Program-made: the position numbers and the translations under genes | Origin: Pseudonocardia hydrocarbonoxydans | GTDB taxonomy: Bacteria > Actinomycetota > Actinomycetes > Mycobacteriales > Pseudonocardiaceae | NCBI RefSeq assembly: GCF_006539565.1 | Contig: NZ_BJNG01000009.1 | Location: forward strand, 1 to 51,732 | Reading direction: 5' to 3' | DNA length: 51,732 nucleotides | Shown: piece by piece, positions 37,708 through 39,578 of the stretch | Layout: each line of letters starts with the position of its first letter | How positions within the stretch are numbered: the stretch's first letter is position 1 | Notes under the pieces: model-generated | What the model saw: only the letters and a program-made list of their open reading frames with translations | The model's database searches: none | Told to the model about the DNA's origin: nothing

Positions 37708-38352
37708 GTGAACCCCCGCCGCGTGGCCGCCGGCCTCGTCGCGCTCGCCGCCGCCGTGGCCGTCGTGCTGGTCGTCCGCTCGGTGGGCCTGCCCGACGTC
37801 CGCGGGGCCGTCGAGGAGTCGGGGGTGTGGGCGCCGCTGCTGTTCGTGCTGCTCTCCGGGGTGGTCACGGTGGCACCCGTGCCGCGCACGGTGTTCACCG
37901 TGGCCGCCGGGGTGCTGTTCGGCTCCGTCACCGGGGTGCTGCTGGCCGTCGCCGGCACCACGCTCGCCGCGGCCGGTGCGTTCTGGCTGGTGCGGCTGCT
38001 CGGCGGCGCGTTCGTGGACCGGCACGCGCACCGCCGCGGCGTGGCCTGGGTGCGCGCCCGCCTCGACCGCAGCGGCCTGCTCGCCGTCCTGTCGCTGCGG
38101 CTGATCCCGATGGTGCCCTTCGCGATGCTCAACTACGCCGCGGGCCTGTCCGGGGTGCGCTTCGTCCCCTACGTGCTGGGCACCGTCCTGGGGATCCTGC
38201 CCGGCACCGTCGCCGTGGTGGTGCTGGGTGACGCCGCGACGGGTGGCACGCCGCACCCGGTGCTGCTGGCCGTCTCGCTGGTGGGCGGGCTGGTGGGGGT
38301 CGGCGGGGCGCTGCTCGCGGCCCGGCGGCCCGCCGTGGTGCCGACCGGGTAG
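37708..38352 (+). CDS. TVP38/TMEM64 (VTT/DedA-like) membrane protein
   Basis: 214-residue membrane protein with about six hydrophobic segments. The VTT-domain hallmarks are TVFTVAAGVLFGSVTGVLLAV and the re-entrant region LRLIPMVPFAMLNYAAGLSGVRF. Homologues are implicated in lipid scrambling. GTG at 37708. Its TAG ends at 38352 and the CCA end of the convergent tRNA begins at 38353, leaving no spacer. Confidence 0.88.
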   Translation: MNPRRVAAGLVALAAAVAVVLVVRSVGLPDVRGAVEESGVWAPLLFVLLSGVVTVAPVPRTVFTVAAGVLFGSVTGVLLAVAGTTLAAAGAFWLVRLLGGAFVDRHAHRRGVAWVRARLDRSGLLAVLSLRLIPMVPFAMLNYAAGLSGVRFVPYVLGTVLGILPGTVAVVVLGDAATGGTPHPVLLAVSLVGGLVGVGGALLAARRPAVVPTG

Positions 38353-38428
38353 TGGTGCCGGCGGCGGGATTCGAACCCGCACTGTCAACTACCTAAAAGT
38401 TGCGCCTCTCCCGTTGGGCTACGCCGGC
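38353..38428 (-). tRNA. tRNA with leucine anticodon UAG but a class I (short variable arm) fold
   Basis: Seventy-three nucleotides plus encoded CCA. The acceptor stem is 7/7 paired (GCCGGCG with CGCCGGC), and the D-arm is GCC/GGC. The anticodon stem is CAACT/AGTTG around loop TTTAGGT, giving anticodon UAG at 38395-38393 (codon CUA). The variable region is only ACAGT, and the T-arm GCGGG/CCCGC encloses TTCGAAT. Discriminator A73, U8, A14, A15 with U48, and G18-G19 are present. Bacterial leucine tRNAs are class II with a long variable arm, so this is atypical. The 5' half is also the end of the HNH coding sequence, so it must be processed from that transcript. Confidence 0.85.
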
Positions 38429-39070
38429 GTTCCGCCCACACCAGGTGTCGGTGAGGGCGTGGCAGTTCGGGCACAGGATACGGAGATTCTCCAGTCGGTT
38501 GTCGGTGTGGTCGCCGTTGATGTGGTCCAGCGCCAACGGCAGCGGCCGTCCGCGCCACTCCGCCAGGCTGCACTCCTCGCAGTGTCCCGGCTTCAGGCCT
38601 GCTCTGATCAGGCGTTTTCGCAGTCGCCCGCCAGCGCGGTAGGTCGAGCCACGGACCAGAATGCCCTCCAACGGCACGACGCGCCGCCCTGCACCGGTGT
38701 GGCCCCTGTTCCACCCCTGACCGGTGAAGTGCGAGATGTCGAGCCCTAGCCGCCGGATGTGGCCGACCATGAGCCGGTGCATGCCACCGCTCGGCCGGTA
38801 TCCCAAACGGCGGCAAACCTCGCTGACCGAGACGCTGTCGGCGACGGCCCGGGCGAGGTCGTCGTCGGTCCAGCTCAGCCGCTTGCGGGGGGAGCCGGGT
38901 GCGGCCGTCGGGAGGTGCGTCGCGTCGAGACCCAACCGGGCGATGTGCGCCCGCATCGAGTCGTACCTCCCGGCCCGCAGACCGAGCCGCACGTGCACCT
39001 CGCTCAGCGTGCGGCTCGCCGCCACGGCGGCGGCGAGCTGGTCGTCGGTCCAGCTCCGGGGGCGCGGCAT
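38393..39070 (-). CDS. SOS-regulated HNH endonuclease ending inside a tRNA gene
   Basis: 225-residue protein. Two similar N-terminal DNA-binding-like repeats (SWTDDQLAAAVAASRTLSEV at 6-25 and SWTDDDLARAVADSVSVSEV at 66-85) precede a zinc-type HNH domain: CEEC (164-167), LDHINGD (181-187), NRLENLRILCPNCH (191-204). Residues 215-225 and the stop are the 5' half of the overlapping tRNA; codon 215 starts exactly at tRNA position 1 and the TAG stop is the anticodon. A consensus LexA box lies 13 bases upstream of the ATG, with a -10-like TACGAT at 39082-39077 that predicts a leaderless mRNA. It resembles homing-type or phage HNH nucleases; the target is unknown. Confidence 0.88.
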   Translation of the reverse strand: MPRPRSWTDDQLAAAVAASRTLSEVHVRLGLRAGRYDSMRAHIARLGLDATHLPTAAPGSPRKRLSWTDDDLARAVADSVSVSEVCRRLGYRPSGGMHRLMVGHIRRLGLDISHFTGQGWNRGHTGAGRRVVPLEGILVRGSTYRAGGRLRKRLIRAGLKPGHCEECSLAEWRGRPLPLALDHINGDHTDNRLENLRILCPNCHALTDTWCGRNAGVAQRERRNF

Positions 39071-39082
39071 CCGCCCATCGTA

Positions 39083-39098
39083 TCGAACATGTGTTCGA
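39083..39098. promoter_or_regulatory. LexA (SOS) box
   Basis: TCGAAC-ATGT-GTTCGA, a perfect palindrome matching the actinobacterial LexA consensus TCGAAC-N4-GTTCGA; symmetry extends one base each side (ATCGAACA/TGTTCGAT, 39082-39099). It lies between the bcp stop (39111) and the HNH start (39070), next to the predicted HNH -10 element, where LexA would block transcription until DNA damage. Confidence 0.85.
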
Positions 39099-39110
39099 TG
39101 CGGGTGCGGA

Positions 39111-39578
39111 TCAGACCTTGAGGTCCCGCCGCAGCTTGGCCACGTGCCCGGTGGCGCGGACGTTGTACTGGGCCACCTCGATCTTGCCGTCGGCGTCGAC
39201 GACGAAGGTCGAGCGGATGACGCCGGTGACGGTCTTGCCGTACATCGTCTTCTCCCCGAACGCACCCCACGCCGTGAGCACGGAGCGGTCCTCGTCGGAC
39301 AGCAGCGGGAACGTCAGGCCCTCCTTGTCGCGGAACTTCGCGAGCTTGGCCGGCTTGTCCGGGGAGATGCCGACGACGTCGAGGCCGGCGTCGCCGAGGT
39401 CGGCGAGGCTGTCGCGGAAGTCGCAGGCCTGCTTCGTGCAGCCGGGGGTGGCGGCGGCCGGGTAGAAGTAGACGACGACCCGGCGGCCGCGGTAGTCCGA
39501 CAGCGACACGGGCTTGCCGTCGGCGTCGGGCAGGGTGAACTCCGGCGCAGCGTCACCGGGGGAGAGGCGGTTGGTCAT
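39111..39578 (-). CDS. bcp: Thioredoxin-dependent peroxiredoxin, Bcp/PrxQ type
   Basis: 155-residue peroxiredoxin reducing peroxides with thioredoxin. Peroxidatic Cys47 and resolving Cys52 lie in ATPGCTKQACDFRD, the C-x4-C spacing of the alpha PrxQ type. VVVYFYPAAATPG and GVIRSTFVVDADGKI are typical. ATG at 39578. It is co-directional with the HNH gene 40 bases downstream, but the LexA box implies separate control of the latter. Confidence 0.94.
   Translation of the reverse strand: MTNRLSPGDAAPEFTLPDADGKPVSLSDYRGRRVVVYFYPAAATPGCTKQACDFRDSLADLGDAGLDVVGISPDKPAKLAKFRDKEGLTFPLLSDEDRSVLTAWGAFGEKTMYGKTVTGVIRSTFVVDADGKIEVAQYNVRATGHVAKLRRDLKV

Follow-up and report, generated by a model that had tools for sequence, protein, structure and literature searches.

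An HNH endonuclease gene of Pseudonocardia hydrocarbonoxydans lies between bcp and the only tRNA-Leu(UAG) gene detected in the genome, and its sequence context points, with a probability of about two in three, to a free-standing homing endonuclease that is likely released by LexA. Homing-type HNH nucleases are known; the novelty here would be that one stands behind a LexA box and is tied, by an overlap and a likely embedded promoter, to a tRNA that is very likely essential.

Layout of the locus and predicted LexA control

The window (the whole stretch of DNA analysed, 51,732 nt) carries the features listed in Table 1. The HNH ORF overlaps the first 36 nt of the tRNA on the same strand, and its stop codon, TAG, is the anticodon of tRNA-Leu(UAG) (tRNA positions 34-36). 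The tRNA matched the Rfam tRNA model at 57.6 bits (gathering score 29); Group II intron and Plastid-ycf2 Rfam matches at the locus fell below their gathering scores and were taken as chance. As TACGAT abuts the LexA box and the ATG of the HNH gene follows 6 nt further on, the HNH mRNA is likely leaderless. A strict sigma-70 consensus scan detected no promoter anywhere in positions 38300-39250, the LexA box and the TATCCT within the ORF included; the promoters discussed below are therefore proposed from conservation alone. A terminator scan of the same positions returned none either, including between the LexA box and the tRNA. The first-pass annotation of this DNA had described a perfect LexA palindrome beside a -10-like element, and an HNH gene with a tRNA gene at its 3' end. 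The palindrome is an exact match and the only exact site in the window; the -10-like element does abut it, although the consensus scan found no promoter there; and both genes are indeed on the same strand, where they overlap rather than merely adjoin.

Table 1. Features of the HNH/tRNA-Leu(UAG) locus, with positions in the window.
Feature	Position	Strand	Remarks
Predicted LexA (SOS) box, TCGAACACATGTTCGA (minus-strand reading)	39083..39098		Exact palindrome, 12 nt before the HNH start codon
-10-like TACGAT of the putative HNH promoter	39077..39082	-	Read from the sequence, function inferred; abuts the LexA box
HNH endonuclease gene, 225 aa	38393..39070	-	ATG at 39070 to TAG at 38393
-10-like TATCCT within the HNH ORF	38475..38480	-	Codons Arg197-Ile198-Leu199; 52 nt before the tRNA
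tRNA-Leu(UAG), short variable arm, A73, encoded CCA	38353..38428	-	Rfam tRNA match, ARAGORN
Gene taken to encode a bcp-type peroxiredoxin	39111..39578	-	Upstream neighbour
Gene taken to encode a DedA/SNARE-associated-like membrane protein	37708..38352	+	Convergent; stop abuts the CCA end of the tRNA

TCGAAC-N4-GTTCGA occurs exactly once in the window, where five LexA-type sites with up to two mismatches were counted against 1.69 expected. The whole genome (5.29 Mb) holds 10 exact sites, and 42 when one mismatch is allowed, vs. 9 for the reversed pattern. Five of the nine other exact sites are located at, or no more than about 90 nt before, recognisable genes (dnaE2-like, two DUF222-HNH, a 2OG-Fe(II) oxygenase that is alkB-like, and GNAT). 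A site with one mismatch was found at recA, and three two-mismatch sites precede lexA (0.07 expected), which has a single match in the genome. Since such sites stand at recA, lexA and SOS-type genes, the motif is likely the LexA operator of this organism. Not every exact site has an SOS-type gene: at the four remaining sites (L169, L175, L177 and L178), the ORFs scanned, those of L169, L175 and L178, matched no Pfam family. The two DUF222-HNH genes (L170 and L174, presumably of the 13E12-type family) are both located behind exact LexA boxes. The window gene is like them in having a LexA box directly before an HNH gene, and unlike them in having a tRNA partner and a protein in which the Pfam scan detected no DUF222 domain (present in the L170 and L174 proteins).

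A search with the window protein matched 25 of 60 genomes, namely its own, 22 of 35 from the same genus and two weak matches elsewhere. tRNA-Leu(UAG) follows the HNH gene in 23/23 of the genus loci; no tRNA was found at the two weak-match loci (L024, L025). After Actinomycetospora and HNH-free loci had been added and duplicates removed, the set comprised 50 loci, 28 of them classed as intact (including L052, which has a one-base insertion near the 3' end) and the others as decayed or empty. P. dioxanivorans is among the carriers of the locus (L047). The HNH stop starts inside the tRNA in 17 of the 28 intact loci, up to 20 nt before it in eight, and beyond it or at an undetermined place in three. 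A LexA box matching at least 10 of 12 positions lies 12-14 nt before the HNH start in 21 of the 28 intact loci, and in 26 of the 35 loci with an identified HNH start when decayed copies are counted. By composition, the chance of such a box at three offsets is about 5e-5 per locus, assuming 73% G+C (the window has 73-77%). The intact loci without the box are L012, L013, L014, L037, L043, L046 and L234.

Further afield the picture changes. Among 30 homologous loci of the class (L185-L213 and L060; HNH ORF parsed in 27), none had a 10/12 box 12-14 nt before the homology-supported start; L210 has a 10/12 match 13 nt before an unlikely upstream start, and L208 has one about 90 nt upstream. LexA control as a family-wide trait was accordingly excluded. 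As the box was found at the HNH start only in Pseudonocardia and Actinomycetospora while tRNA adjacency is class-wide, the adjacency is a family trait and the predicted LexA control a local one. The first-pass annotation had proposed LexA control of the HNH gene and a search for recurring boxes and overlaps. The proposal gains support from the fixed distance of the box and from the similar sites at recA, lexA, dnaE2-like, DUF222-HNH and alkB-like genes, and both features do recur (box in 21/28 and stop inside the tRNA in 17/28 intact loci). Homologues without a LexA box, which it had regarded as counter-evidence, are what was found outside the two genera, but there the tRNA-Leu adjacency persists.

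In 10 of 33 loci (L003, L006, L007, L008, L011, L014, L016, L023, L040 and L234) the HNH start is preceded, at a distance of 48-60 nt, by a 9-mer that we take to be DnaA-box-like, TTGTCCACA, with 0.017 occurrences expected by mononucleotide shuffling; the 9-mer is absent from the window.

The HNH protein, its tRNA neighbours and its probable exchange

The N-terminal half of the HNH protein consists of two similar helical domains (about residues 5-48 and 65-112), which we read as helix-turn-helix-like, and the C-terminal HNH domain has two CxxC knuckles. The Pfam HNH_3/HNH models fell just under the cut-off, and the best named family was phrog_10822 HNH endonuclease (E 2.4e-57); the Pfam and phrog scans matched HNH-type families and no GIY-YIG family. 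D182, H183, N195, H204 and the four knuckle cysteines are invariant in 44 sequences. The AlphaFold2 model has a mean pLDDT of 85; nothing matched below E 0.001 when structures were searched, and fold searches gave nothing firm. Nine close pairs, with dN/dS values of 0.12-0.26, show purifying selection on the gene, and its product is predicted to be a DNA-cutting homing enzyme.

The HNH profile matched 54 of 296 genomes in the class and 51 of 249 in the order. All 29 class loci fetched besides our own have a same-strand tRNA-Leu after the HNH gene (27 UAG, 2 UAA), and all nine further loci fetched from the order have a tRNA-Leu (6 UAG, 3 UAA). Twenty stretches with weaker matches, chosen by us, all contained a tRNA (12 Thr(UGU), 5 Leu(UAG), 2 Arg and 1 Pro); about 0.03 per stretch would be expected at the tRNA density of our own genome. 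Relatives also occur in Saccharibacteria and other bacteria, with the ORF stop 11-45 nt inside tRNA-Leu(UAA) in 8 loci, and 10 of 14 viral contigs with relatives have tRNAs in the stretch. The tRNA was absent at three Prevotella loci and one contig end, and the link was missing in L070-L072 (0/3), L081 (0/1) and the viral L092-L095 (0/4). L055, L057 and L079 sit among other tRNAs, and L073 has a tRNA-Leu on the opposite strand.

Five Pseudonocardia loci (L139-L142, L144) and two from other families (L148, L150) have no HNH gene, and only a short spacer separates bcp from the tRNA-Leu(UAG) after it; L143, L145 and L147 keep HNH remnants. Judged from these sequences, the ancestral locus is bcp-tRNA, and the HNH gene is an optional insertion that is seen intact, decayed and absent. 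Of 36 filled or decayed loci, 32 have bcp within the fetched stretch, though in some it is not the immediate neighbour. Eight of these 32 (L044, L048-L052, L069, L076) carry bcp on the opposite side and convergent with the tRNA; there too the HNH gene is located directly 5' of the tRNA. Because the position of bcp shifts while the HNH gene stays 5' of the tRNA, the unit that stays together, as far as gene order tells, is HNH-tRNA.

Trees were built for 16 Pseudonocardia loci with HNH, bcp and DedA. The bcp and DedA trees have 9 of 13 splits in common, whereas the HNH tree shares two with bcp and three with DedA. The AU test rejected the HNH tree for bcp (p 0.0002) and for DedA (p 5e-57), and rejected the flank trees for HNH (p < 0.001); the bcp and DedA trees also differ somewhat from each other (AU p 0.04 and 0.002). 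An earlier run, which covered 23 loci with fewer replicates and was limited to HNH and bcp, agreed on the conflict. Given this conflict with both flanks, transfer of the HNH gene from lineage to lineage at a fixed site is probable, and homing would predict it. The locus thus has the marks of a homing endonuclease: an HNH-motif nuclease, an optional intergenic insertion with empty and decayed sites, and inheritance independent of its flanks. A selfish homing cassette at a tRNA site, one of the ideas of the first-pass annotation, is in line with the empty sites, the decay, the tree conflict and the class-wide tRNA adjacency.

The HNH gene might instead be a domesticated host gene, i.e. a damage-inducible repair or defence nuclease that descended vertically beside tRNA-Leu and was frequently lost. 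Such a history would agree with a LexA box in 21 of 28 intact loci, with the purifying selection and with the order bcp-HNH-tRNA, which is the same in distant families of the class. We consider it improbable, as the HNH tree is rejected for bcp and DedA alike, two genes whose own trees largely agree, decayed copies are numerous, the HNH matches include none of 39 genomes drawn from the family's other genera, weaker relatives are located at tRNA-Thr, Arg and Pro, and tRNAs accompany the relatives on 10 of 14 viral contigs.

The tRNA-Leu(UAG) gene and its candidate promoter

A whole-genome tRNA search gave 45 matches, among which ARAGORN identified long-armed tRNA-Leu with GAG and CAG anticodons and short-armed tRNA-Leu with CAA, UAA and UAG. 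The window gene is the sole tRNA-Leu(UAG) detected in the genome (completeness 99.18%), and the tRNA is therefore very likely essential. Short-arm tRNA-Leu (UAG, UAA or CAA) was also found in several other families of the order; by this comparison the short variable arm is ordinary in the order and the tRNA is no exotic passenger. In 32 aligned tRNA-Leu(UAG) genes the D and anticodon stems covary, UAG and A73 are invariant, and the changes are compensatory. Fold, UAG anticodon, A73 and its place as sole detected isoacceptor all assign the window gene to the housekeeping tRNA-Leu(UAG). The first-pass annotation had seen an unusual leucine-anticodon tRNA that might alter CUA decoding, a view at odds with a sole detected UAG isoacceptor and with a short arm that occurs in several families.

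The HNH ORF contains a candidate promoter for this tRNA. The Arg197 codon is CGT in 24/24 aligned ORFs, vs. 10.8% of the Arg codons in these genes (7.6% outside the motif, 51/674 in 22 ORFs), and in the 67 conserved columns every other codon with 4- or 6-fold degeneracy varies. Arg197-Ile198-Leu199 spell TATCCT or TATTCT, 50-79 nt before the tRNA. TAT[CT]CT is kept in 28/28 intact loci and in 45/50 overall, including frameshifted copies and the HNH-free L140; the five loci that lack it are all HNH-free. Other -10-like hexamers precede the tRNA at empty sites, as judged by eye. No consensus -35 was found for the TATCCT within the ORF. A rare codon that is invariant, and kept in decayed copies too, suggests that the tRNA probably has its promoter inside the nuclease gene.

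This bears on the joint induction put forward in the first-pass annotation, in which a single LexA-driven transcript would raise tRNA-Leu(UAG) after DNA damage and change CUA decoding. HNH gene and tRNA do overlap on one strand, and read-through could add tRNA, as the scan found no terminator-like site from the box to the tRNA and no consensus tRNA promoter. The only UAG isoacceptor detected is, however, needed without damage, a -10-like element is conserved just upstream of the tRNA, and the tRNA persists, with -10-like hexamers (by eye), where the HNH gene and the box are gone. We regard joint induction as very unlikely; a dependence of the tRNA on the LexA-driven transcript is doubtful when a -10-like element is conserved against codon bias inside the HNH ORF, albeit with no consensus -35.

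The anticodon stem of tRNA-Leu(UAG) was highly variable, with 18 distinct forms in 32 Pseudonocardia genes (mean identity 0.46), compared to 2 forms in 9 (identity 0.96) for tRNA-Leu(UAA) of the same genus, taken from our own genome and 8 genus members without an HNH match. Pseudonocardia loci without intact HNH (L139-L147) were equally varied (8 distinct stems in 9). In other genera of the same family, 39 genomes with none among the HNH matches gave 38 readable genes, with 5 stems (0.72) and an identical loop in 38/38. The tRNA-Leu(UAG) search pattern, which found a match in 87 of 249 genomes, holds part of the D arm constant and hence samples conserved D arms; in family f8 it was too strict (1 of 81 genomes matched). 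A Streptomyces-type control pattern for tRNA-Leu(UAA) was ill-fitting and matched 0 of 41 genomes. The HNH tree accounts for the D-stem type better than chance (4 changes, p 0.008) and the bcp tree does not (6 changes, p 0.42), and across 21 loci tRNA distances showed a weak partial correlation with HNH distances (0.17, p 0.015) and none with bcp. The anticodon-loop type was excluded as a marker of co-inheritance, because it follows neither the HNH nor the bcp tree (p 0.74 and 0.76). A hypervariable, compensated stem together with the fit between D stem and HNH tree suggests that the DNA of the D and anticodon arms may be the target of the nuclease, and that resistant, recoded tRNAs may travel with the HNH gene. 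Since stems are equally varied in HNH-free Pseudonocardia, past HNH occupancy must be assumed there.

Relaxed constraint on the decoder of a very rare codon would be another source of this variability, with the HNH gene hitchhiking beside the tRNA without cutting. CUA is rare in such G+C-rich genomes, a point in its favour. The varied stems at loci without intact HNH would then need no nuclease, and the invariant Arg197 codon could serve another DNA or RNA signal. We find relaxed constraint rather unlikely, considering that the 38 genes read from the family's other genera show 5 stems and one loop, that tRNA-Leu(UAA) is conserved at an identity of 0.96 within Pseudonocardia, and that the changes are compensatory with UAG and A73 invariant.

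The loop CCTAGGA, found in L010, L011, L020, L023, L048 and L051, has C at position 33, which in tRNAs is normally U.

Proposed mechanism and relation to known systems

Under the homing reading, DNA damage would cause LexA to leave its box, and the nuclease would be made while RecA-dependent repair is active. It would cut HNH-free tRNA-Leu(UAG) alleles in the DNA of the D and anticodon arms, and repair would copy the HNH gene into the cut chromosome along with its linked, sequence-altered and uncuttable tRNA. Constant transcription of the tRNA from the promoter inside the HNH ORF would make the insertion cheap for the host, while a full deletion of the HNH gene would silence an essential gene. 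The essential tRNA gene would thus be both the landing site and the safeguard of the nuclease. A more far-reaching reading, which we offer tentatively and at clearly less than even odds, is a natural cleave-and-rescue gene drive: the SOS-released HNH nuclease would destroy naive tRNA-Leu genes and spread with its own recoded, uncuttable copy, in an arms race leading to hypervariability of the tRNA.

Several parts of this scheme have precedents in the literature cited here. The seg and mob free-standing homing endonucleases of phage T4 are intergenic and lie beside conserved genes, and their ORFs embed promoters of downstream genes (segG for the essential gene 32; similarly segA, segE, mobB and mobC), which according to the T4 review favours retention of the endonuclease (PMC2988022). 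The locus described here resembles them in its intergenic nuclease gene with a likely downstream-gene promoter in the ORF. It differs in its bacterial chromosome, its tRNA gene, its LexA box and an ORF stop supplied by the tRNA; the cited parts of the T4 review make no mention of LexA control (PMC2988022). SegB of T4/T6 is encoded next to tRNAs, cuts within tRNA genes and is often tRNA-associated in phages (PMC13096335). The likeness is a homing-type nuclease gene adjoining a tRNA, but SegB is a GIY-YIG enzyme in phage tRNA arrays, whereas the HNH gene is found here at a single-copy chromosomal tRNA.

HNH genes in mycobacterial and phage tRNA arrays have been taken as a sign of horizontal transfer, and a cluster-encoded short-arm tRNA-Leu(TAG) has been reported for such arrays (PMC6582537, PMC5966550). 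Their partners are extra, array-borne tRNAs, whereas here the partner is the sole UAG isoacceptor detected, with a LexA box and a -10-like element in the ORF. Synthetic Cleave-and-Rescue sets a nuclease against an essential gene and links it to a recoded, uncuttable copy; it is Cas9-based and was built in flies (PMC7951863). The same logic would apply here, in a natural setting and as deduced from sequence. Among the matches listed in a search of open-licence full texts, no LexA-controlled HNH gene at a chromosomal tRNA-Leu was found.

In the literature found, phages and tRNA arrays are the settings in which homing endonucleases beside tRNAs have been described. Here such an arrangement would act on a chromosomal tRNA that is single-copy and likely essential, in members of a whole bacterial class and, for one lineage, with SOS timing. 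Should the nuclease cut naive tRNA genes and spare linked ones, the locus would be a natural model of a cleave-and-rescue drive, and it would explain how one housekeeping tRNA can be hypervariable.

Weaker HNH relatives near tRNA-Thr(UGU) were observed in 12 loci from two families (L214-L221, L223-L225, L233), and other tRNAs may thus have HNH partners of their own; none of these 12 has its tRNA after the HNH match, the tRNA being ahead of the match or opposite to it. Two tandem HNH motifs precede tRNA-Leu(UAG) in L185, L186, L189, L190, L192-L197 and L210, and within the tandem-HNH genus, g43, these tRNAs diverge strongly in sequence and in arm class. In L199, L201, L202, L205 and L206 the HNH frame is open through the whole tRNA-Leu, with the stop at tRNA position 163 to 433.
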